DNA of 49,173 bases, from the IMG/VR virus record IMGVR_UViG_3300013126_000051, positions 1 to 49,173 of that record. One strand, 5' to 3'. The notes under the pieces were generated by a model. The model had not been told where the DNA came from and did no database searches. It saw only the letters and a list, made by a program, of their open reading frames with translations. Origin of the DNA: a virus. Shown here piece by piece: positions 3,049-47,822 of the stretch (within the stretch, counting starts at the first letter, position 1; every line of letters begins with the position of its first letter). The position numbers were made by a program, and so were the translations under genes.

Positions 3049-3461
3049 AAACACTCCTTCTTATCACAATGCTCTGTATCCCGCTGGTAGTTTATGGTCC
3101 ACGGACCACAGAAATAAGCCTCCCTGCCTCTAACGGCATTAATCCCTATGAAACCCTTTACCGGGCCATAGCTGTCGTAGAATCAAATAATAACCCCGCT
3201 GCCGTCAATTTTGAGAAGAACGGTTACTCAGTGGGGATCCTTCAGATCAGACAGGGAATGGTGACGGATTTCAACCGGGCCACCGGGAAGAACTACCACC
3301 TATATGACTGCTTCCAGGAGCAGGTGAGTGCGGAGATCTTCTATTGGCACTGTTCGAAGTTCAGGATTGACGATATAGAGTCTATGAGCCGTTCCTGGAA
3401 TGGAAGAGGCCCAGCGACAAATAAATATTGGAGTAAAGTTTCAAAATATTTATTCAAATGA
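3045..3461 (+). CDS. Exported lytic transglycosylase-like muramidase (endolysin candidate)
   Basis: 138 residues. Residues 1-19 form a signal peptide (MKTLLLITMLCIPLVVYG). The remainder has features of the SLT/lysozyme-like fold: a catalytic-type glutamate in AVVESNNNPAAVN (about residue 47), then YSVGILQIRQGMVTD, then a late SRSWNGRG segment. The expected activity is cleavage of the MurNAc-GlcNAc bond in peptidoglycan in the periplasm. It is either the phage endolysin or an entry or release muramidase. The next reading frame overlaps its stop by 4 bases and begins with a lipoprotein-type leader, which would suit a lysis cassette. Family assignment is from motifs. Confidence 0.75.
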   Translation: MKTLLLITMLCIPLVVYGPRTTEISLPASNGINPYETLYRAIAVVESNNNPAAVNFEKNGYSVGILQIRQGMVTDFNRATGKNYHLYDCFQEQVSAEIFYWHCSKFRIDDIESMSRSWNGRGPATNKYWSKVSKYLFK

Positions 3462-3483
3462 GACGAATGTTTCAAATATTGTG

Positions 3484-3491
3484 TATTTTTG
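3484..3491 (+). promoter_or_regulatory. Possible -7 promoter element of leader RNA copy 1
   Basis: TATTTTTG fits the Bacteroidota -7 consensus TAnnTTTG. It sits at the same distance upstream of the leader RNA (2 bases before ATTGC) as the well-formed promoter of copy 2 at 35407-35414. No convincing -33 TTTG lies at the right distance, so this promoter may be weak or decayed. Confidence 0.35.
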
Positions 3492-3492
3492 T

Positions 3493-3616
3493 ATTGCTAC
3501 TCATATCCATTTCCTGTGAAGCAATTCATGACACAAAGAAACAGAGGGGACATACCAGTGCAAGTCTGGCAGTCATATTCGAGCTTCGCTTGGATGTGGG
3601 TAGCAGTGATCCCCTC
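3493..3616 (+). ncRNA. Structured leader RNA, copy 1
   Basis: A candidate cis-acting RNA. The outer stem P1 pairs GAGGGGA (3544-3550) with TCCCCTC (3610-3616). Inside it TACC (3553-3556) can pair with GGTA (3599-3602). A first hairpin has CCAG (3555-3558) and CTGG (3566-3569) around the loop TGCAAGT. A second pairs ATTCGAGC (3577-3584) with GCTTGGAT (3588-3595). A weaker upstream pairing is ATTGC (3493-3497) with GCAAT (3521-3525), which may include the transcription start. The homologous copy at 35416-35539 has every element at the same spacing, with changes on both sides of the stems. It lies 28 bases before the start of the small protein at 3644. Reading frames are open across it, so a coding role is the alternative. 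Confidence 0.6.
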
Positions 3617-3643
3617 CATTCGTTTTATAAAATCAATTTATTT

Positions 3644-3889
3644 ATGCTACCCACAAATGACTACTGCAGTAAAACTGCTTTATCGGCTATTTCAGCCGAC
3701 GAAATTCTGAGTGATCTATTAATTACTGACGACATCTCCCGGATGCGCCAGCATTTAAGGCAGGCCTTAGACAATTATCTATTGTCAGAAGAGGAACTTA
3801 GAATAAAGAAACAGGTCTACTCGACCTTTCTTGCTCTTGATGTCATGCTTTGTAAGTCTGAATCAATCAAAGAAAGGGGGGTGTTATGA
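3644..3889 (+). CDS. Small MLPTND-type protein, copy 1 (unknown function)
   Basis: 81 residues from the ATG at 3644. The start was chosen because the paralogue at 35567 begins with the same MLPTND after an equally long leader. Shared features are MLPTND, then (I/L)(S/L)xxEIL(S/N)DL(L/M)I(T/S)DD, then a helical C-terminal half. The frame stays open upstream to an ATG at 3458 and would then encode MRRMFQILCIFVLLLISISC, a lipoprotein-like leader, overlapping the transglycosylase stop. A 143-aa product is therefore possible. The stop overlaps the ATG of the HNH/AP2 gene (ATGA), implying translational coupling. Function unknown. Confidence 0.6.
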   Translation: MLPTNDYCSKTALSAISADEILSDLLITDDISRMRQHLRQALDNYLLSEEELRIKKQVYSTFLALDVMLCKSESIKERGVL

Positions 3890-5269: not shown

Positions 5270-6151
5270 ATGAAAAAAGAAATTATTACAAAAGGCTATA
5301 AGGGATTCGACATGAATCTTAAGTGCCGTGATTTCCAGTATGAAATTGGAAAAGAATTTGAAACAGATAAAGAACCTGCAAGATGCACTGAGAATGGATT
5401 TCATTTTTGTGAAAATCCCTTAGATGTTTTCGGTTACTATCCTGTCGGACAAAGTCGATTTACAGAAGTTGAGGGAATTGGGGAAGTATCAAAAGATGGT
5501 TCGGATACAAAAGTGGCCGTGTCAAAAATCAGAATAGGTGCAGAAATTAGTTTGCATAAAATGATCGAAGCGGGAATTAAATTCATTTTTGAAAGAACTA
5601 CCATGTCCAAAGAAAACACCAATAAGGAAGATAAAAGACACGCTTCCAATTCCGGGTACAGGGGTGCAGCTTCCAATTCCGGGTACAGGGGTGCAGCTTC
5701 CAATTCCGGGAACAGGGGTGCAGCTTCCAATTCCGGGGACAGGGGTGCAGCTTCCAATTCCGGGGACTGGGGTGCAGCTTCCAATTCCGGGGACAGGGGT
5801 GCAGCTTCCAATTCCGGGGACAGGGGTGCAGCTTCCAATTCCGGGGACAGGGGTGCAGCTTCCAATTCCGGGTACAGGGGTGCAGCTTCCAATTCCGGGG
5901 GCAGGGGTGCAGCCGTTACAATAGGCACATCTTCTTGTGCCGAGACGTCAGGAAAAGATTCGTTTGCCTGTGCTCTAGGAATAGACAATAAGGCTAAGGG
6001 CTGTATTGGTTCATGGATAATTTTATCTGAATGGAAAGAAACGGAAACTTCTTGGGAATTAAAAACCGTTAAATCTGTAAAGGTGGACGGAAAGAAGATA
6101 AAAGACAATACATGGTATCAGTTGAAGGGTAGGAAATTAGTTGAAGTATAA
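5270..6151 (+). CDS. DUF7666-type protein with a nine-residue tandem repeat region
   Basis: 293 residues. The N-terminal part (KGYKGFDMNLKCRDFQY, ARCTENGFHFCENPLDVFGYY) matches the DUF7666 domain found in phage and prophage proteins. Residues about 125-214 consist of ten copies of a nonapeptide A-S-N-S-G-x-R-G-A, where x is Tyr, Asn, Asp or Gly; one copy has Trp in place of Arg. The region resembles pentapeptide-type or glycine-rich solenoid repeats. A C-terminal domain follows (GIDNKAKGCIGSWIILSEW). The role is unknown; repeats of this kind may mediate binding. The repeat array is near identical at DNA level, so copy number could vary. Confidence 0.75.
   Translation: MKKEIITKGYKGFDMNLKCRDFQYEIGKEFETDKEPARCTENGFHFCENPLDVFGYYPVGQSRFTEVEGIGEVSKDGSDTKVAVSKIRIGAEISLHKMIEAGIKFIFERTTMSKENTNKEDKRHASNSGYRGAASNSGYRGAASNSGNRGAASNSGDRGAASNSGDWGAASNSGDRGAASNSGDRGAASNSGDRGAASNSGYRGAASNSGGRGAAVTIGTSSCAETSGKDSFACALGIDNKAKGCIGSWIILSEWKETETSWELKTVKSVKVDGKKIKDNTWYQLKGRKLVEV
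5642..5911 (+). repeat. Ten tandem 27-bp repeats
   Basis: Ten head-to-tail units of 27 bp, each starting GCTTCCAATTCCGGG and ending AGGGGTGCA, fill 270 bases inside the DUF7666 gene. Differences are concentrated at one codon (TAC, AAC, GAC or GGC), plus a TGG for AGG substitution in one unit. The array is open in several frames on both strands, so the antisense open frames there are repeat artefacts. Confidence 0.95.
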
Positions 6152-32505: not shown

Positions 32506-34512
32506 ATGAAGATCATAAAGAGCCGGGAGGAAATGGCCGGCATGACAAATACCATGCTGGGGATGCGTAAGCAGCAGATTATTCCGCTGCCTACATCTCA
32601 TATTGGTTCCGAGAATGTCAGGGAGAACATGGACTTGCTTGAGGAATGCCGCAGGTATTGGGAATCGCTCAGGGATTTCCGGGAGCGCCGGTCCCGTAAC
32701 CGCAAATACTATCGCGGAGAACAGTGGAGTGATTTCATCAAGAACCCTGACTCAAAGACCAGCTCTAATGAGTATATCACCGAGGAGCAGTATATCATGA
32801 ACCAGGGCAAGGTACCTCTGAAACAGAACCAGATAAGGCAGCTGGTGAAAAACCTCATAGGGCAGTACCGGAGCAACCCTTCTAAGTCAATGGTCATCCC
32901 CCGGGCCCGGGAGAATGCTCTTACGGCTGAGATGCTTACCAATGCCCTGCAGTGTGCCCTGGATAATAACTTCATCGAGGAACTGGACGCAAGGATCTTT
33001 GAAGAATTCGCCAACTCCGGGGCCATTCCGCAGAAAATTGGGTACAAGTACTGGAAGGATCGCAGTATTGAAGATATCCTGATAGAGAACAGGAACCCGG
33101 CCAAGATGTTTTATAACTCCGATGTCTCAGATATCAGACTGCTGGACCTCAGACTTATCGGGGAGATTATCGATACAACCCTCGATGACATTATTAGTTC
33201 GTTTGCAAAGAGCGAGGCTGACGAGAAGCGGATCCGGCAGATATACACCAATTACGTCAAGAACTACATCGTATCTGATCGTGGACATGATGCAAGCCTT
33301 ATTGATAATATGGATTTCTTCATGCCCCGGGATATGAACGTAGCCAGGATGTTTGAGATATGGAGACTTGAGGGGAAATGGGAGACATATGCTCATGATC
33401 CGCTGGACGGCACTGACGGTCCTGTTGACTTCTCCATGGAGGAAATAGCACAGCAGAACGCTGAACGCCTGCAGATGGGGATGGAACAGGGAATACCGCA
33501 GGAGGAGATCCCGCTTATCGAGGCTAAGCCGCGGTTCATCAACAGCTGGTATGTTAAATACCTTGCCCCTTCCGGCCATGTGCTGTTTGAAGGAAAGTCA
33601 CCATATAGTCATGAGGAGCACCCTTATGCGTTCACCCTGTACCCGTTGCTTGACGGTGAGGTGTGGGGATTCATCGAGGATATCATCGATCAGCAGAGAT
33701 ATATCAACCGGCTCATCATCATGATGGACTTTGCCATGAGCGCATCCGCAAAAGGTGTTCTTCTTGTGCCGGAAGATCTTATTCCGGAAGGTATGACCCC
33801 TGATGATTTCGCTGAACAGTGGACCAAGTTTAACGGGGTGATACTGTATAAGCCTAATACTCAGCATACCCAGAAACCTGAACAGATCGTTTCCAAGAGT
33901 ACCCCTATGGGATTCAATGAGATGATCCAGCTGCAGATGTCACTGCTGCAGGAGATCTCCGGAGTACATGGAGCTATCCAGGGAAAGGCCCCGGGATCAG
34001 GAACGCCAGCTGCCCTGTATGCCCAGGAGGCACAGAACGCATCCATGAATACCCTGGACTACATGCATACGTTCAAGTATCACAAACAGAAAAGAGATAC
34101 AAAGGTGCTGAAGGTCCTTACTCAGTATTATCAGGATGAGAGATACCTGGCTATCAACGGAAGGACAGCAACAGAGGAAGCTAAAATTTACAAGCCTGAG
34201 ATGGCTCAAAACATACAGTGGGAGCTTGTTGTAACTGCCGGCACAGATACACCGGTTTACAAGCAGGTTATTGAATCAACTCTCATGGAGCTGCTTAATG
34301 GTCGTCTTATTGATCTTGAAATGTGGCTCGAACATACTACAATGCCGTTCGCGGATAAGCTGCTCGCATCAGTGAGACAGCAGAAGGAACAGATGCTTCA
34401 GAGCGGGGCAGTACCTCCGGAGCTGGCTGCAATGGCCGGACAGGCTCCTGGGGGTGTTAATCCTCAGACTATGCAGCTGGCTAACCAGTTCATGGGTCGC
34501 CCTGCAGCATAA
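32506..34512 (+). CDS. Portal protein
   Basis: 668 residues. Signature N-terminal helix SRNRKYYRGEQWSDF near 64-77, then LKQNQIRQLVKNLIGQYRSNPSK near 105-127, a wing and clip region, EDIIDQQRYINRLIIMMDFA near 395-415, and a C-terminal glutamine/methionine-rich tail. This matches portal proteins of Bacteroidales podovirus-like phages. The dodecamer forms the DNA channel at one capsid vertex. It lies 8 bases after the giant protein and is followed by a terminator. Two of its segments recur in small proteins at 37234-37783. Confidence 0.85.
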   Translation: MKIIKSREEMAGMTNTMLGMRKQQIIPLPTSHIGSENVRENMDLLEECRRYWESLRDFRERRSRNRKYYRGEQWSDFIKNPDSKTSSNEYITEEQYIMNQGKVPLKQNQIRQLVKNLIGQYRSNPSKSMVIPRARENALTAEMLTNALQCALDNNFIEELDARIFEEFANSGAIPQKIGYKYWKDRSIEDILIENRNPAKMFYNSDVSDIRLLDLRLIGEIIDTTLDDIISSFAKSEADEKRIRQIYTNYVKNYIVSDRGHDASLIDNMDFFMPRDMNVARMFEIWRLEGKWETYAHDPLDGTDGPVDFSMEEIAQQNAERLQMGMEQGIPQEEIPLIEAKPRFINSWYVKYLAPSGHVLFEGKSPYSHEEHPYAFTLYPLLDGEVWGFIEDIIDQQRYINRLIIMMDFAMSASAKGVLLVPEDLIPEGMTPDDFAEQWTKFNGVILYKPNTQHTQKPEQIVSKSTPMGFNEMIQLQMSLLQEISGVHGAIQGKAPGSGTPAALYAQEAQNASMNTLDYMHTFKYHKQKRDTKVLKVLTQYYQDERYLAINGRTATEEAKIYKPEMAQNIQWELVVTAGTDTPVYKQVIESTLMELLNGRLIDLEMWLEHTTMPFADKLLASVRQQKEQMLQSGAVPPELAAMAGQAPGGVNPQTMQLANQFMGRPAA

Positions 34513-35106: not shown

Positions 35107-35376
35107 ATGATGTCTATTGAGGGAGTATTACTTGGATGGATTGTTATTATTGTTCTGGCAATCCTTTGCGCAATTTTTAAATTACAATCAGGATGCGCAA
35201 GATACGCATGGTTTGTGCTTAATGTTCTACTTGTTTCATTGATGGCAGGAGCGAACCCTGCCGATCCTAAACATAGGGAAATTATAGACATAGGAGCAAT
35301 GGCTTTATTATTTTATGTATATATCACTACTAATATGGCAATTGCGAAATTTTTGGATTACAATATAGATGACTAA
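35107..35376 (+). CDS. Small membrane protein
   Basis: 89 residues (or 88 from the second ATG). Helices at about 6-24 (VLLGWIVIIVLAILCAIF), 33-48 (WFVLNVLLVSLMAG) and 64-82 (GAMALLFYVYITTNMAIA). No family recognised; superinfection exclusion or lysis control are possibilities. Preceded by a TTGACA-N17-TACTCT arrangement and a near-match TGTATTTG, either of which could be the promoter. Confidence 0.5.
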   Translation: MMSIEGVLLGWIVIIVLAILCAIFKLQSGCARYAWFVLNVLLVSLMAGANPADPKHREIIDIGAMALLFYVYITTNMAIAKFLDYNIDD

Positions 35377-35384
35377 TAAAAATT

Positions 35385-35414
35385 TTTGGATTTATCAAAA
35401 ATTGCTTACCTTTG
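35385..35414 (+). promoter_or_regulatory. Promoter of leader RNA copy 2
   Basis: TTTG (35385-35388, within TTTTTGG) and TACCTTTG (35407-35414) fit the Bacteroidota -33 and -7 elements with an 18-base spacer, a near-perfect match. Transcription would begin around 35420, at the 5' edge of the leader RNA. Confidence 0.75.
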
Positions 35415-35415
35415 A

Positions 35416-35539
35416 ATTGCTACTAACACACAATTCAAATGATGCAATCAATGACAACAAGAAACAGAGGGAGCCTACCGGTGCAAGTCCGGCAGTCAAT
35501 CATTTGCATCGCAAGTGTGTTGGTAGCAGGGACTCCCTC
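35416..35539 (+). ncRNA. Structured leader RNA, copy 2
   Basis: P1 pairs GAGGGAG (35467-35473) with CTCCCTC (35533-35539). Next CTACC (35475-35479) can pair with GGTAG (35522-35526). Hairpin CCGG-TGCAAGT-CCGG spans 35478-35492, and hairpin CATTTGC/GCAAGTG follows near 35500-35516. ATTGC (35416-35420) and GCAAT (35444-35448) may pair upstream. Every element is at the same spacing as in copy 1 (3493-3616): both P1 stems enclose 73 bases and lie 28 bases before ATG. P1 positions 6 and 7 and the last pair of hairpin 1 have changed on both strands. It is a likely cis-regulatory 5' leader; the ligand or partner is unknown. Confidence 0.65.
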
Positions 35540-35566
35540 CCTTTTATTAATCAAATCTTCATTTTT

Positions 35567-35821
35567 ATGTTACCAACAAATGACGAACGTGGCTACGCCA
35601 CTCCAATCGGACTTCTCAGTCCAGAACAAATCCTAAACGATTTAATGATCTCAGATGATCTTCCGGCTATGCGCAACAATCTCCGGGAGATGATGGAGCA
35701 GTATCTTCTTCGCGAAGATGATGCTCGCTATCGCCATGCAGTATTCGGAACCTATAAGGTTCTGGATATTTTACTTTCGAGAGTAGAAAATATAAACAAC
35801 AAAGGAAGGAGGGCAGCATAA
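35567..35821 (+). CDS. Small MLPTND-type protein, copy 2 (unknown function)
   Basis: 84 residues. The start at 35567 is supported by the promoter at 35385-35414, which lies inside the longer open frame beginning at 35369. It is paralogous to the protein at 3644 (MLPTND start, EQILNDLMISDDLPAMR, helical C-terminus ending near VLDILLSRVE). Its stop overlaps the Rha gene start (TAATG), so the two are coupled. It may regulate or partner with the leader RNA or with the cargo gene; nothing shows which. Confidence 0.65.
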   Translation: MLPTNDERGYATPIGLLSPEQILNDLMISDDLPAMRNNLREMMEQYLLREDDARYRHAVFGTYKVLDILLSRVENINNKGRRAA

Positions 35822-36662: not shown

Positions 36663-36855
36663 ATTCTTCTAATTCCTCACTTACCAATTCCGGCTCATCA
36701 CAACTCTCCTTCATAGGCAGTTCAACAAGGTCAAAGACGGGTAGTTTCATCCGTGCCATCTTCCGTCTGGCCGTGTCGATGTTACGGGACCAGAACAGAT
36801 GATAGCCGGTCCCCTTCTTCGTGTAAGAGGTTGTTTTAGCCTTGAAGTATCTCAT
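36661..36855 (-). CDS. Hypothetical small protein
   Basis: 64 residues from ATG 36855, overlapping the stop of the upstream HNH gene (ATGA). Basic N-terminal half (AKTTSYTKKGTGYHLFW, ARRKMARMKLPVF) and acidic tail (EELEE). No family recognised. Last gene of the minus-strand operon. Confidence 0.5.
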   Translation of the reverse strand: MRYFKAKTTSYTKKGTGYHLFWSRNIDTARRKMARMKLPVFDLVELPMKESCDEPELVSEELEE

Positions 36856-37253
36856 GTCAATAAGTATCTTAGTTGAATGATCTCTCCGTGGTGAGTTATG
36901 TTCTTGTATTCGACATCCGGAAACTGTGCAAAGACATCGAACAGGTTCGGGAAGTGCGAAGCGTATTGATTGAAGTACGAAGGATCGAGGATGAATGTGA
37001 TATACATGCATTCGATGATCCTGGGAAGATATAAGGCCTGATCGGTTCTGTCATCATAGATGGTGTGACAATGCCGATGCGCCAGGCCGGTATTGAGCTT
37101 ACAGGTGATAAGGCTACGATTTGCGGACCTTCGGATGATATGAGCAAGGTCGCCGGTATGCACGAAATGATTGCAGAATACACAGAGGGGGTATTCGTGA
37201 TAGTACCAAACTTTGAGTTTGTGGAGTTCATAATCAATCTGTGATTGCTGCAT
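36852..37253 (-). CDS. HNH-endonuclease-like zinc protein
   Basis: 133 residues from ATG 37253; it overlaps the previous gene by 20 bases. Residues about 23-66 hold PLCVFCNHFVHTGDLAHII, then NTGLAHRHCHTIYDD, arranged like the HNH/zinc-finger fold (Cys pair, AH, then H-x-x-C-H). It may be a phage packaging or recombination HNH nuclease. The C-terminal half is unrecognised. It is downstream of the two Tat-leader proteins. Confidence 0.6.
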   Translation of the reverse strand: MQQSQIDYELHKLKVWYYHEYPLCVFCNHFVHTGDLAHIIRRSANRSLITCKLNTGLAHRHCHTIYDDRTDQALYLPRIIECMYITFILDPSYFNQYASHFPNLFDVFAQFPDVEYKNITHHGEIIQLRYLLT

Positions 37254-37500
37254 TATCTGACCATTTATCACCTTCGTAAAATTTTCTGTATGCCCTACTC
37301 CTTTCTTCCATGTATTGCTTTGGATTCTCAAGGCTTCTGATGATAGTATCCAGAGGAGTATTACTTGGCCTCATGTTAGTAATCCTCTTTGAAAAATCTT
37401 CTGGTATTCTCGGCTTGCCAATTTTGGCTAGTATCTTTGGTGCAGAGAGAATTACTGCAGCGCCTATTGCAAGTTTCTTAAAGAAAGTTTTTCTATCCAT
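37234..37500 (-). CDS. Tat-like leader protein carrying capsid- and portal-like segments (protein A)
   Basis: 88 residues. Residues 1-25 form a twin-arginine-like leader (DRKTFFKKLAIGAAVILSA; the second Arg of the pair is Lys). Residues 36-58 align without gaps to residues 67-89 of the major capsid protein: RITNMRPSNTPLDTIIR against RITEMKPAATPLDTILR, 13 of 23 identical over the longer span. Residues about 67-82 match the portal N-terminus: RKFYEGDKWSD against RKYYRGEQWSD. It may be a relic of gene fragments or a small exported protein that interferes with virion assembly; function is unknown. Protein B is 7 bases upstream. Confidence 0.65.
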   Translation of the reverse strand: MDRKTFFKKLAIGAAVILSAPKILAKIGKPRIPEDFSKRITNMRPSNTPLDTIIRSLENPKQYMEERSRAYRKFYEGDKWSDNAAITD

Positions 37501-37507
37501 ATCATAG

Positions 37508-37783
37508 TCAATATAAACGCTCCGGTACTATTGGCCCTTTGTACAACAAAATCCCTGTCTGTCTCCATATATTTACTATTTCGTCAATAGTCATCCCATC
37601 AGGAATGCTGTCTATTGGGACCATGAAAACTCCCTTTGGCTCAGTACATCTCACTGCAGACATTTCTGCATCTGGCAGGACTGCGACATCAGGATCTTTC
37701 TTTATCCCTGCAATGAGTTCAGGTGCTACGGCCACTGCTGCAGCGCCTATACCTAGCTTTCTGAAAAATGATCTGCGGTTCAT
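37508..37783 (-). CDS. Tat-like leader protein carrying a portal-like segment (protein B)
   Basis: 91 residues. Residues 1-26 are a twin-arginine-type leader (NRRSFFRKLGIGAAAVAVA), close in sequence to that of protein A. Residues about 50-83 resemble portal residues about 416-450: KGVFMVPIDSIPDGMTIDE against KGVLLVPEDLIPEGMTPDD, and later W, G, LYK, about half identical. The portal segment lies in the middle of that protein, not at a terminus. It may be a decoy, an assembly modulator or a recombination relic. Tat export is a prediction from the leader. Confidence 0.65.
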   Translation of the reverse strand: MNRRSFFRKLGIGAAAVAVAPELIAGIKKDPDVAVLPDAEMSAVRCTEPKGVFMVPIDSIPDGMTIDEIVNIWRQTGILLYKGPIVPERLY

Positions 37784-37793
37784 AATGGTTCAA

Positions 37794-37940
37794 TTAATCA
37801 GTGAATACTGCCAACATAACGCCTGCAAATAGCATCCAGCCCCATCCATGGACCTCTGTAAGAGCCATAGCCACACTCCCTCCAATGATTATCAGGATCA
37901 TGGCTAATACTCCAATGCGGTTTACCTTACTTTTTTTCAT
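37794..37940 (-). CDS. 48-aa membrane protein
   Basis: ATG 37940 to TAA 37794. After a basic start (MKKSKVNR) come two short hydrophobic helices (IGVLAMILIIIGGSVAMAL and GWGWMLFAGVMLAVF). Its start lies inside the end of the preceding gene (14-base overlap) and it ends 10 bases before protein B. No family recognised. Confidence 0.55.
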   Translation of the reverse strand: MKKSKVNRIGVLAMILIIIGGSVAMALTEVHGWGWMLFAGVMLAVFTD

Positions 37941-38469
37941 GGTTATTCAGGTTTAATAGGTTATTCAATGGAATAAATTCATGCTTCTCAATGTTTTCAG
38001 GATCTAAGGCAAGTGCGTGGTTATTATCAAAAAAAGGATGAGGTCTCAATAGAATAGTTGACTCTGTCTCCTTGCCAAAATCACCATCTCTTTTTAGTTT
38101 CTCAACATATTCATCCCATTTTTTCCAATCTTCAGATGTCCACCATTCGGTAGCCATGTCCCCCGGAGGATCGCCAAGTCTATGCTTCACAACAATCTTC
38201 TTGAACTCTTCCGGCTCTTTTGCTTCTGAGTTCGCATCTCTACTTATTTGCTCAATTATCCCACCCGTCTTGTATGGAGGTCCCTCGCGAACCGGTATGT
38301 TCCATATATAGTCCATAGTGGCTCTCTGCAAAAAAAGCATCTCCCATTTAGCCCTGATTTCTGCTGCTCGATAAGAATCCGGTTCCAGTACGAGAGTTTT
38401 TATATCTGACTCAAGTTGCCTGATGCGCTCTTTGAGGTTATTCTTCTGCCTTGTGGATTTACTTGACAT
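37927..38469 (-). CDS. Hypothetical protein
   Basis: 180 residues from ATG 38469; a TTG three codons earlier is possible. The N-terminal 60 residues are charged and helical (KNNLKERIRQLESDIKTLV), the middle contains EWWTSEDWKKWDEYVEKLK. No family recognised. Overlaps both neighbours by a few bases. Confidence 0.55.
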   Translation of the reverse strand: MSSKSTRQKNNLKERIRQLESDIKTLVLEPDSYRAAEIRAKWEMLFLQRATMDYIWNIPVREGPPYKTGGIIEQISRDANSEAKEPEEFKKIVVKHRLGDPPGDMATEWWTSEDWKKWDEYVEKLKRDGDFGKETESTILLRPHPFFDNNHALALDPENIEKHEFIPLNNLLNLNNHEKK

Positions 38470-38827
38470 TGACTCCAACCATTTGAGTTAATAGTATATC
38501 CATATATTTACGCAGATCCTCAAGATGTTTTAATGAGGCAGTAAGTTCTCCTTCAATAAGATTAACATCCTTTGTTTTGATCCCTTTTTGAGAGAGATAT
38601 TCGGCAAGAGATTTGAATAGTTGGATTGCAAAATGCGAATTCAGACTAAGAAAAGGAGTAAGATCAACTGGAATTTCATTAGGATCAATCTTAGTCTTTA
38701 CCATGATATTATCCTTAATTGATATGTTCCATTCTGCATCACCATGATATTCATGAACCCAAATCTCCGTACAATGGCGATCCATTCGCTCTACGATCCT
38801 GATATCGACTTCATTAATTAGTGGCAT
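38459..38827 (-). CDS. Hypothetical protein
   Basis: 122 residues, mixed alpha/beta character, no recognised family. The C-terminal part is helical (ELTASLKHLEDLRKYMDIL). It overlaps the next gene by 11 bases and begins 6 bases after the HExxH gene. Confidence 0.5.
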   Translation of the reverse strand: MPLINEVDIRIVERMDRHCTEIWVHEYHGDAEWNISIKDNIMVKTKIDPNEIPVDLTPFLSLNSHFAIQLFKSLAEYLSQKGIKTKDVNLIEGELTASLKHLEDLRKYMDILLTQMVGVNVK

Positions 38828-39343: not shown

Positions 39344-39535
39344 CTAAGATCCCGGGTTGTTCCGGGCTTTCTTAAGCGCTTCGATCTGTTCAGGGGTTAT
39401 ATTCCCTGGCATCGTAGATTTTACTTTCGGCTCACCTTCGGAGCTCTTGAACACTCCGGCTTGTATGCCGTGCGCTGTCGTCACGGGCTCTCCCGCGACA
39501 ATCAGGCCTTTGAATTTCTTTTTACTATTGCTCAT
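39344..39535 (-). CDS. Hypothetical small protein
   Basis: 63 residues, basic N-terminus (MSNSKKKFKGLIVAG) and a short helical end (TPEQIEALKKARNNP). No family. Overlaps the NinB-like gene (ATGA). Ends with TAG; reading through would add only eight residues. Confidence 0.45.
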   Translation of the reverse strand: MSNSKKKFKGLIVAGEPVTTAHGIQAGVFKSSEGEPKVKSTMPGNITPEQIEALKKARNNPGS

Positions 39536-41982: not shown

Positions 41983-44900
41983 TTATATACTTGCTGCACT
42001 TACAATTTTCTTACTCAGTTTCGGCTTAACCGCTGTGACGATCTTCGGCATCGGCATGTACTTGAAGCAGATCCACACTCCGATAGCCGTGGTAATAACA
42101 AGGTCATCCTTACAGCCATCGACAGCGCCGTAGGATCCGTCAGGTTTGATCTCATATGTATCCATCTCATCACAGGCCCGGAGGTCACGTTCATAATACG
42201 AACCTTCCCTGAGAGCTCCATTAAGCTCATCGATCACCATGGGCTTTGTTGACACATTAGTATGCCATCCGTACTTGATCGGGACTCCTTCCCGGACCTT
42301 CTCATGGTCTGTCCTGGCATAGATGTTTGAATAGAACTTGACAATCTCATTCAGCATGGTCAGGTGATGATCCCCTTCAGAATTGATGTTATCCTTTCTG
42401 AGGGAGTTGTATTCAACTACCAGTAGGGCATTATTATATAGCTTTGATAATTGTGCTGATTTCCAACAAACTAAATCTTGGTCGCAATTATGGACAACGT
42501 AGCATGCTGTAGAATATGAATTGTCATCTTCTACTTCTAGATTATATACGTAACCTGTATAATGTGAGGTTGATTTAGATTTAAGTTTGTATACAATATT
42601 TTTATCATCTTGAAGCAATGAGTTATTCTTTGGGGTGGACATAACCCAGACCACATTGTATCTTATCCTAGAACTTTTTATACCCTTGCCTTTTGTTTTT
42701 GCTATTACTCGATAAATGCCTGGCCTGAACCCAATAAGAATTAAGATGTCTCTTATTTGCCTTGCAAGAGTCGCAGATACAGTAGAAACTGTATGAGTTA
42801 AAGTATTATCTGTTTTATATATAGATCCATCTCCCTTCCAGTAACAATCAAGAAGTATTGATAATAGCTTTTTAGAATATTTAAGAACTTCAGGGCTAAT
42901 CTTTTTATTCCAGGAATGCTCTCCGCATAGATTAAGTATTAAGCACGCGAGATTAGTATCGTATGCCCGTACTCTACATACTCCTACTTTTTTATATTCT
43001 ATAATGGATGCCTTAAATCCTAGTTTTACAATCTTGCTGTAGCAATCTTTAGCAATGGTATCTTTTTCACTATATGAGAATGAAAAGCATATACTTGAAG
43101 GTGTTTTATTGTTATCAGATCTCTTATTAATATGGCCTTCAGCTAAATAGTACCCTAGTACAGAGAAGAATGACTCTAAGTCTATTATTTCCCGTAGAGT
43201 ATTCTTGGATTTACCTCCATTGTATTTATTAATTATAAAGGGAGGTTCGCATACATCTTGTTTTTCTCTAGAGTACGCTATATGCTTTAAGTCTTTTGAA
43301 GCAATCCACTTGGGTTCTCCAATAAATTCTTTCCGAGGGTACATGAACGGCTGTTTGCGCCCTCCTTTATTATTCCATGTCCTCTTTACTACCTTATTGA
43401 CTAGCTCATTACTGAAAAATGGATGCTCGGGAGTACATCTTACTGTTTCATAATTCCCTTTTGCTCTTAAATTATACAGATCTCCATCATACTCATTTTT
43501 ATATGTTTTTAAGACCCTTTTAAATCTATTCCTATGCGTCCATACAAGATCTCCCACCTTTACATCTTCAATGTTTTTTAATCCCTCTGAAGTATATATT
43601 TGAGTCTCTGGCGTAAAACAATGCCCTCGCCAGGTCGCAACAACAGTCGGCTTCCCTCCCTCACTCATCCAGTACCGGTCGAACACCTTTATAATTGAGT
43701 AGTCGGCATCCTTTGTCTTTCCTCCGATATCAACAGTGACTGCATACCGGTTTGATACCTGCATGGTATTATCGGGCATCTCCCAGACAAATAGGTCTCC
43801 TTTGTCATTTTGGAAGAACTCAAGATCTTCGAACGCCTCCTTGCCTTTTTGTGCCTTGCCTCTGACATCCCCGATGAACACGGGAGGTTTGCAGGTTTTC
43901 CGGGCCTTGTCAACATATGGTTTCGGGAACACCCTCCGTCCGGATGTCTGAAAACTTTCCTCGGCCGTGGTCGGGTATTCAGATTTCATCTGCCAGTCGT
44001 CATAGTTCTTATTCTTCTTGTACCAGAAGTACCAGTTTATCCCCTCAAGAGTAGCACCCTGGTTCCAAAGGAACATTGCATAGTCATCCTTGAGCATCCA
44101 TTCGACAAAGTTCTTTATAGAGTTATGCCCATAAAAATCCCTCTGGTAAATCTCGATCTCATGCCAGCCTACGAATATCGGCTCATATCCGCTGCGCCCC
44201 TGAACAGCTGCAAGCCATTCATTATGAAAGAAGTTCCCAACACCATTAGCCGTTGATTCAAGAACTTCCAGTGAGAGCTCCACATCAGGGATCTGGCTAC
44301 GGATAGACCGGATAAGATCTGCTGAGGATTTTGTTGGGGTAGATGGCCAGAACGAGACCTCTGATAAATGAACCATGGCAAAGTCAAATGATCGTAGGTT
44401 ATCCGGTTCTTCGGCTGATCCGATACCGATAATGCTGCCTCTGTTCTCTATCACCCTATTCTTTGCACTGCCCTCGAAAGGGAGAAGGACTATTGCACCA
44501 TGCTCTATCGGGTATTCCTTTGACAGACGGGTGAACATCCCCCTGATGTTTCGGGCCTGGTTCTCAACCTGTGTGACAATAGCACTGTGCCAGTTCTTTC
44601 GTAGCCTTATCTGAATCCAACCCATATAGATCTGAGTCAGTGTCGATCCTCCCCACTGACGGGCCTTGTCTATGATAGCCCTTATCGGCATACATGCACG
44701 GCGCATCTTTTCTACTCTTGACAGGTACTTACGCTGTGGCTTATTCAGTCTGAACGGGATGATCTGTTTTGATTTCTTGTCCTGTATCTTCACGCAATAG
44801 AATGCCCAGAACTCAAAATCATAATCAAACCTGATCTCAATTATCTCATGCAGGAATGTTTCAACAAGCTCGGGATCAGGATCGGTATTATATTTTTTAA

Positions 44901-45129
44901 GAACAGCCTCAAGAGATCCCAGGGAGGATATAGCATTAATAAGCGGTTTGTGGTCCCTAATCATATCAACAGGGAGCCTCCATTTGTATTCCTGCCCTAA
45001 TGCTGTGAAAATAACCTCCCCCCGTTCGATTGGAGATCCGATACCGGTTAACGGGTCGTATGGCTCAAACATAACCTGTCTGCGCCATTTGTTCTCTTTG
45101 ATGATATCCTTGTACTGCTTCTCAGTCAT
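41983..45129 (-). CDS. terL: Terminase large subunit (TerL), interrupted by an intein
   Basis: 1048 codons. N-extein residues 1-503 contain the ATPase: Walker-A-like KARQWGGSTL near 155-164 and Walker B MVHLSE near 252-257, plus coupling region VLESTANGVGNFFHNEW. Its end enters the nuclease domain (AVTVDIGGKTKDADYSII). Residues 504-881 are an intein. C-extein 882-1048 holds the remaining nuclease acidic residues (LVVEYNS, KDDLVITTAIG). Spliced TerL would be 670 aa, the usual length. It packages DNA into the capsid through the portal. The gene's start overlaps the small HTH gene by 8 bases. Confidence 0.9.
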   Translation of the reverse strand: MTEKQYKDIIKENKWRRQVMFEPYDPLTGIGSPIERGEVIFTALGQEYKWRLPVDMIRDHKPLINAISSLGSLEAVLKKYNTDPDPELVETFLHEIIEIRFDYDFEFWAFYCVKIQDKKSKQIIPFRLNKPQRKYLSRVEKMRRACMPIRAIIDKARQWGGSTLTQIYMGWIQIRLRKNWHSAIVTQVENQARNIRGMFTRLSKEYPIEHGAIVLLPFEGSAKNRVIENRGSIIGIGSAEEPDNLRSFDFAMVHLSEVSFWPSTPTKSSADLIRSIRSQIPDVELSLEVLESTANGVGNFFHNEWLAAVQGRSGYEPIFVGWHEIEIYQRDFYGHNSIKNFVEWMLKDDYAMFLWNQGATLEGINWYFWYKKNKNYDDWQMKSEYPTTAEESFQTSGRRVFPKPYVDKARKTCKPPVFIGDVRGKAQKGKEAFEDLEFFQNDKGDLFVWEMPDNTMQVSNRYAVTVDIGGKTKDADYSIIKVFDRYWMSEGGKPTVVATWRGHCFTPETQIYTSEGLKNIEDVKVGDLVWTHRNRFKRVLKTYKNEYDGDLYNLRAKGNYETVRCTPEHPFFSNELVNKVVKRTWNNKGGRKQPFMYPRKEFIGEPKWIASKDLKHIAYSREKQDVCEPPFIINKYNGGKSKNTLREIIDLESFFSVLGYYLAEGHINKRSDNNKTPSSICFSFSYSEKDTIAKDCYSKIVKLGFKASIIEYKKVGVCRVRAYDTNLACLILNLCGEHSWNKKISPEVLKYSKKLLSILLDCYWKGDGSIYKTDNTLTHTVSTVSATLARQIRDILILIGFRPGIYRVIAKTKGKGIKSSRIRYNVVWVMSTPKNNSLLQDDKNIVYKLKSKSTSHYTGYVYNLEVEDDNSYSTACYVVHNCDQDLVCWKSAQLSKLYNNALLVVEYNSLRKDNINSEGDHHLTMLNEIVKFYSNIYARTDHEKVREGVPIKYGWHTNVSTKPMVIDELNGALREGSYYERDLRACDEMDTYEIKPDGSYGAVDGCKDDLVITTAIGVWICFKYMPMPKIVTAVKPKLSKKIVSAASI
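42487..43620 (-). other. Intein with LAGLIDADG homing endonuclease inside TerL
   Basis: 378 residues. Block A starts with C (CFTPETQIYTSEGLKNIEDV), block B has VRCTPEHPFF, the endonuclease motifs are LGYYLAEGHI near 43150 and LLDCYWKGDGSI near 42840, and block F/G ends with DNSYSTACYVVHN followed by C as the +1 residue. All splicing residues (C1, block B T and H, terminal HN, +1 C) are present, so it should be active. It sits between the first and second acidic motifs of the terminase nuclease domain, with TWRGH before it and CDQDL after. The segment is clearly more A+T rich than the exteins. Confidence 0.95.
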
Positions 45130-46457: not shown

Positions 46458-47822
46458 ATGAAGAAGTTTAATCTCTTTAAAATAGGACTCGCACTCTTTG
46501 GGTTCATTGCTATGACAGTGTTCCTGGGGGTCGTTTCCTCGGCTCTTGCATCTACCGGTGTTGCTCTGTCAACGATGGTCGGTGCTGTGCTTGCTGGCGA
46601 TCCTGTCACAACCAAAGAAATTGCTGACGGATCTCCCGGCTTGCTGAAGAATACCATATCTCAGCGAATTACCGAGATGAAGCCGGCCGCAACTCCGCTG
46701 GATACCATCTTAAGAAACATTGACCGATTAGTCCCGATCAGTTCATGGGAGACGGAGTATTTCGCAGTCGATTCGCGTCCGCTGAACGACACTGTGAACA
46801 CTCAGTATACCAAAGGAGGTGATGGCGACAGGTCGATAAATCTTAAGGTCAATAATATCCAGATGTGGAACCCGGATGATGCAGTTATGATTGATGGCAT
46901 CTTAGGTTCTGACGGGATGGCAACTGTTTGCCATGTCCTTAGCAAGAACGTAGGGAATGCAACACTCCTGCTCCAACCTCTTAACGGTACTGCAGGATCG
47001 GGAACGACCGCAGGATATTTCATTATCCCGGCAACCATCCCGGCAAACACACTGCTTACCCGTCTTGCTCCTATCAAGCATGAACTTGATGCGCAGACCA
47101 GCCCGTATGCAATCGTTCCTGTGAAAGACTCAAACTATGTACAGATATACATGGCTCAGGTCGAACAGTCATCGTTCGCAGCTCTGCATGACAAGAATGT
47201 TCCCTGGAACTTCTCTGACTATGAAGCTCAGAACGTATATGACATGAGGGCCGTACTCGAATACACTTCGCTCTTTGGAGTAAAAGCAAAAACTGTATCT
47301 CTTGAGGATGGACAGGAAAGGTTTTCAACTGGTGGTATAACCAGGTACATAACCAAGGCCCTTGAGTATGGTACCGGTGGAAACGACAGAACTATTGACA
47401 ACTCAACATTTGTCGATTGGGGTAAGTCGGTCTTTACCGGCAACTCGGGAGCAGACAAGAGGATACTCTTTGGTGGTAACGGCCTTATGGCTAACCTGTC
47501 AAAGGTAGACACCGTTCAGAAACAACTGGAAGCCGGTAAGACTGAGGTTGTTTACGGTATCACCTTTACACAGATCGAAACTAACTTCGGTATCCTGCTC
47601 TTTAAAAAGCATAGTCTCCTGGATCTCTGCGGATGGAGTGAGAAAGGAATCGTACTTGACCTTAATAACATCGAAAGGCATGTATGGAAACCCATGGCAA
47701 CCCGCAAGCTGGACCTGAAATCTTCAGGACAGAAGAATGTCGATGCAGTAGTCATCGAAGAAACCAGTGGTGTGATAACCAGGTATCCTGATACCCATGC
47801 CATCATAGGTCCCAAAGCCTAA
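46458..47822 (+). CDS. Major capsid protein, SU10-like
   Basis: 454 residues. Residues 50-90 contain VTTKEIADGSPGLLKNTISQ and then RITEMKPAATPLDTILRNI, a signature of SU10-type/DUF5309 capsid proteins. HK97-like features follow, including an internal VLEYTSLFGVKAKTVS and a C-terminal RKLDLKSSGQKNVDAVVIEE. The first 47 residues are hydrophobic and resemble a signal peptide (KKFNLFKIGLALFGFIAMTV, then SSALASTG). This may be a removable N-terminal segment. It is followed by a strong terminator. Confidence 0.85.
   Translation: MKKFNLFKIGLALFGFIAMTVFLGVVSSALASTGVALSTMVGAVLAGDPVTTKEIADGSPGLLKNTISQRITEMKPAATPLDTILRNIDRLVPISSWETEYFAVDSRPLNDTVNTQYTKGGDGDRSINLKVNNIQMWNPDDAVMIDGILGSDGMATVCHVLSKNVGNATLLLQPLNGTAGSGTTAGYFIIPATIPANTLLTRLAPIKHELDAQTSPYAIVPVKDSNYVQIYMAQVEQSSFAALHDKNVPWNFSDYEAQNVYDMRAVLEYTSLFGVKAKTVSLEDGQERFSTGGITRYITKALEYGTGGNDRTIDNSTFVDWGKSVFTGNSGADKRILFGGNGLMANLSKVDTVQKQLEAGKTEVVYGITFTQIETNFGILLFKKHSLLDLCGWSEKGIVLDLNNIERHVWKPMATRKLDLKSSGQKNVDAVVIEETSGVITRYPDTHAIIGPKA

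Follow-up and report, generated by a model that had tools for sequence, protein, structure and literature searches.

The occurrence of two small adjacent genes, whose products carry a leader followed by segments resembling capsid and portal proteins, raises the question of what such genes do and whose capsid and portal they resemble. The window analyzed here, meaning the whole stretch of 49,173 bases, is a single virus record of a Bacteroidota-type phage, and it reads as a phage since it has its own major capsid protein (MCP), portal and terminase genes. A sequence-only reading of this DNA had described the two proteins, here called A and B, as mimics of the phage's own capsid and portal. Both of the ORFs that it described are present, and they are listed below with the features that surround or resemble them.

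37234..37500, minus strand: protein A, 88 aa; twin-arginine-type leader (1–29), copy of the MCP N-arm (~34–59), copy of a portal N-terminal motif (~60–82)
37508..37783, minus strand: protein B, 91 aa; twin-arginine-type leader (1–29), variable linker, copy of portal ~405–449 at ~48–82
37796..37940, minus strand: small membrane ORF of 47 codons directly upstream of B in the same operon; in-frame codon score positive
37927..38478, minus strand: protein C, 183 aa, gene upstream of B; two weak collinear MCP-like segments (40–86 and 143–173), suggestive only
36852..37250, minus strand: conserved gene after A, overlapping its 3′ end; relatives 56–57% identical in loci L177 and L089
46458..47822, plus strand: MCP (SU10_MCP), source type of the A arm (residues 67–89), with its own hydrophobic leader helix (6–31)
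32506..34512, plus strand: portal protein (P22_portal), source type of the second block of A (37–76) and of the B block (405–449)

The ORFs of B and A are separated by 7 nt on the minus strand, in an operon that runs in the direction from the terminase genes to the portal gene and that also includes an SSB-like gene. Elsewhere in the window, an intein-like Hint/LAGLIDADG insert was observed within the large terminase ORF (41983–45129), a paralogous pair of small proteins was found at 3458–3889 and 35369–35821 (42% identity over 139 columns), and the protein at 5270–6151 carries GAASNSGxR-type repeats in a row.

Capsid and portal similarity behind the leaders

The two leaders are indeed related, as had been proposed, with 52% identity over 29 residues. 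Searches against the whole window with tblastn matched A to the window's own MCP (E 3e-6) and to the N-terminus of its own portal (E 1e-4), and B to the same portal (E 2e-7), and none of 2000 shuffled sequences matched any of these three scores. With the leader removed, shuffle tests gave p values of 4e-8 for A 30–62 against the MCP, 2e-5 for A 60–88 against the portal and 6e-9 for B 30–91 against the portal, while the crossed controls (A 30–62 against the portal, A 60–88 against the MCP, and B against the MCP) were flat, with p values from 0.3 to 0.6.

A further search used family profiles built without the window and covered 25,798 ORFs together with 51,596 decoys, either reversed or shuffled. 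A matched the MCP profile with an E value of 9e-7 and B the portal profile with 1.3e-4 (25,798 ORFs), and the two were the top matches once true MCP and portal fragments had been set aside. The portal piece of A is marginal by profile (E 0.59, against 1.3 for the best decoy), its support being the pairwise match. Shuffle tests, crossed controls and window-free profiles all agree on a real capsid and portal similarity behind the leaders. Against Pfam, A scored 12.5 bits over 30 residues with SU10_MCP (PF17236), below the gathering cut-off of 24.1, and neither A nor B matched P22_portal (PF16510). A and B were likewise absent among the cross-matches of the window's scaffold-family profile, which was searched for a scaffold-like C-terminal motif of the CpmB type. 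At the DNA level, A and the MCP gene retain one 32-nt stretch at 81% identity, which bears out the earlier view that the relation is old. Sequence searches of viral contigs and phage records returned no relative of A, and B recovered nothing but portal genes from the phage records.

The further claim, that the copied proteins are the phage's own, was half borne out: the similarity to capsid and portal is real, and the window's own proteins are not the best match for the A arm or the B tail. The arm of A is closest to the MCPs of loci L019 and L017 (17/24 identical residues, against 13/24 for the own MCP), and the own MCP ranks 8th of 128 for this arm. For the B tail, the own portal ranks 46th of 207, and many portals match the B segment equally well, a pattern that also fits an old capture without a specific target.

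Leaders and related proteins in other phages

The leaders of A and B are predicted to be membrane or export leaders. A twin-arginine motif of the R-R-x-F-F type with a moderately hydrophobic stretch is present, reading NRR[SN]FF in B and in the leader proteins of loci L019 and L053, and DRKTFF in A, where one R is replaced by K; the hydrophobic peaks of the leaders reach 1.9–2.0. The gene for the L019 leader protein is flanked by the TerL side and the portal, with the strands arranged as in the window, and that of L053 lies in the same TerL-to-portal operon as those of the window and L019. The tail of the L019 protein can be aligned across 70 columns with the portal of the same locus (p 2.5e-8), and the L053 protein carries a leader and a short portal-like end, confined to its last ~20 residues (p 9e-4). 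The conserved blocks common to B, L019 and L053 are the leader and a W-R-[RQ]-[ST]-G segment, and because this segment is shared together with a one-residue gap relative to portals, the three look like one lineage.

The sequence-only reading had asked for leader-plus-fragment homologues whose fragments track their own structural proteins. Such homologues exist, clearly in L019 and weakly in L053, and consistent tracking of own proteins was not observed among them. Whether L019 tracks its own portal appears to depend on the method: for an ungapped segment of 26 residues the own portal ranks 1st of 184, while for the whole tail several other portals score above it. Proteins with the same leader and no structural similarity, which that reading had named as evidence against itself, were found in unrelated phages only and never in related ones. 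When all fetched loci were scanned for leaders, leader-plus-fragment proteins were recovered, within this phage group, in the window, L019 and L053 only; leader-pattern scans returned mostly unrelated proteins. The leader proteins of L004 and L168 were rejected as homologues, as they match nothing but themselves in their own records. Weaker portal-like pieces were observed in two other small proteins, of loci L089 (p 6e-4) and L096 (p 3e-4; blastp E 1.5e-7). The L089 protein (2360–2755) is small, resembles MazG by eye only, and ends in the portal-like tail FIKEWRNHNGKIIYHP.

Small genes with head-protein segments in the phage group

In two further clades among the fetched loci, other small genes copy head-protein segments, as in the two examples below.

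L058, 15303–15461: MCP N-arm mini-gene, with 13 similar loci
L077, 11945–12166: mini-gene joining MCP and scaffold segments (p 3e-4 for one half and 2e-5 for the other)

In a clade of leaderless MCPs, 14 loci carry a copy of the MCP N-arm in an ORF of 52–59 aa, which lies 17–39 nt upstream of that for the MCP; for 13 of the 14 minis, another mini is a better match than any of the MCPs tested. Their dN/dS is ~0.03–0.16 in eight of ten pairwise comparisons, the other two being not computable and synonymous sites being near saturation; the MCP N-arm minis are under strong purifying selection. In L071, L072, L073 and L077, an ORF of 73–75 aa just after the portal gene combines an MCP N-terminal segment with a scaffold-like tail (IWxRGGxKR). 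The recurrence of such mini-genes, with the MCP N-arm set under purifying selection, suggests that fragment genes are kept in this group.

These observations bear on the possibility that A and B have no function today and were left behind, or drift on, after structural genes had recombined with a small leader gene. The lack of a homologue of A in the searches described above, the divergence of the DNA and the shortness of the pieces would all agree with such an origin. Against it, both frames are open, while random sequence is stop-free in only ~0.5% of cases each, and the in-frame codon scores of A and B are positive and above those of the other frames, so both look like coding-like frames that are kept rather than decaying. 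The leader and the portal-like block are, moreover, the very parts common to B, L019 and L053. A mere relic is also made unlikely by the strong purifying selection on one analogous mini-gene set, and we regard this explanation as improbable.

The MCP-like segments of protein C reached an E value of 1.2e-4 among the window genes and 0.054 against all ORFs, and no relative of protein C was found in viral contigs. The likeness of a conserved small gene family (VxxGxPVTT motif; window 39344–39535) to the MCP linker was rejected as too weak (E 0.25), as were MCP-like pieces in L015, L036 and L105, which lie at or near the decoy level.

Capsid protein leader, rhomboid-family gene and predicted structures

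A hydrophobic, signal-like N-terminal stretch was observed in 139 of the 156 MCPs of the fetched loci, including that of the window (46458–46580). A rhomboid-family ORF is present in the loci of 93 of the 139 leader-bearing MCPs and in none of the 17 with leaderless MCPs, in counts drawn from related and partly repeated loci that are not independent. Examples, among many other loci, are as follows.

L001, 19634–20101: rhomboid-family ORF
L002, 22426–22944: rhomboid-family ORF
L003, 22405–22923: rhomboid-family ORF

From this distribution, the rhomboid-family protein could be a candidate protease for the MCP leader. Structures were predicted from alignments of sequences from the window, the contig-scan loci and further loci. 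The predicted MCP structure shows a helix at 6–31, low confidence at 29–74, and then a core matching HK97-fold capsids. In the portal model, the second block of A falls within helices 38–54 and 56–69, and the B block lies in the strand-helix region that follows helix 389–415.

The main rival to the interference reading set out below is that A and B serve the assembly of their own phage, bringing its portal and MCP together at the membrane and assisting in the nucleation or timing of proheads. In A, as in the MCP, the leader is followed by the arm, and a portal motif is added; the MCPs of the group themselves bear leaders, and MCP-copied mini-genes adjoin the MCP gene in another clade. A precedent is provided by T4, whose portal initiator is membrane-bound and whose portal wing touches the surrounding capsomers (PMC9958956); the likeness to T4 gp20/gp40 is that portal assembly starts at the inner membrane, and A and B differ from gp40, which is not reported to be a fragment of a structural protein. 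However, the few relatives that carry such proteins argue against a core function, and the copied pieces are not consistently best matched to the own proteins. We hold an own-assembly role to be unlikely, if still worth serious weight.

Possible roles of A and B

Among the proposed roles of decoy, poison or assembly placement, indirect evidence (patchy occurrence, the mismatch to the own proteins and the lack of consistent own-protein tracking) makes us lean toward interference. A and B may be small maintained accessory proteins that present copies of head-assembly interfaces behind a leader, and we tentatively prefer, at somewhat less than an even chance, that they interfere with related phages. 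The copied pieces (the MCP N-arm, the portal N-terminal helices and the portal strand-helix-strand) would retain the binding partners of the complete proteins, while the leader would tether A and B to the inner membrane, a site where assembly may also start from the group's leader-bearing MCP. As competitors during portal-capsid nucleation, A and B would then reduce the number of heads made by a related phage that co-infects or superinfects the cell, in a manner similar to CpmB or Tab. Against the interference reading, a leader that does function in Tat or Sec export would deliver the fragment to the periplasm, away from cytoplasmic assembly, and segments of 20–40 residues may not fold alone.

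CpmB is a SaPI capsid protein with the same RIIK motif as the helper scaffold, for whose site it presumably competes (PMC6893505). It resembles A and B in being a small protein with a short motif that the target phage has in one of its structural proteins, but it is satellite-encoded and without a leader, and its motif comes from the scaffold rather than from MCP or portal. Tab, a tail assembly blocker of 83 aa, stops virion assembly of related phages (PMC10884400) and is likewise a small prophage protein encoded near terminase genes; however, it acts on the tape measure protein, was reported without similarity to known proteins, and no leader was reported for it. No capsid-fragment decoy, no rhomboid together with a Bacteroides phage MCP and no interference by a truncated MCP was found in the literature searched, which, given the incomplete coverage, is weak evidence of novelty.

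Two further explanations appear very improbable to us. In the first, A and B would be capsid cargo, with the copied segments acting as packaging tags and the small leader proteins being delivered via the head to the membrane of the next cell. The internal proteins of T4, whose capsid targeting sequence addresses the scaffolding core (PMC3012670), are otherwise unrelated small proteins that have only this short head-assembly sequence in common, and the leaders of A and B would suit membrane delivery. The T4 tag, however, targets the scaffold core and is no copy of MCP or portal, and little room is left in A and B beyond the copied pieces. In the second, to which we give an equally small chance, the fragments would be made early and occupy CapRel-type or capsid-sensing TIR sensors of the host without triggering them fully. 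Bacteria do have sensors of capsid proteins (PMC9712102, PMC11312562), and the operon is shared with an SSB-like gene, but the leader is left unexplained and a matching sensor would be hypothetical here.

Taken more widely, the mini-proteins of the group might form a class of head-interface copies (MCP arm, portal and scaffold tail), some of them leader-tethered, whose role would be to adjust or disrupt the making of heads at the membrane, in phages whose capsid protein bears a signal-like leader of its own; we put this possibility at little above one in three. If it is true, phages themselves would keep small structural-interface genes as regulators or weapons, a strategy known from satellites (CpmB). 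The leader-bearing MCP, often accompanied by a rhomboid-family gene in the head module, also makes membrane-linked head assembly directly testable in existing isolates.
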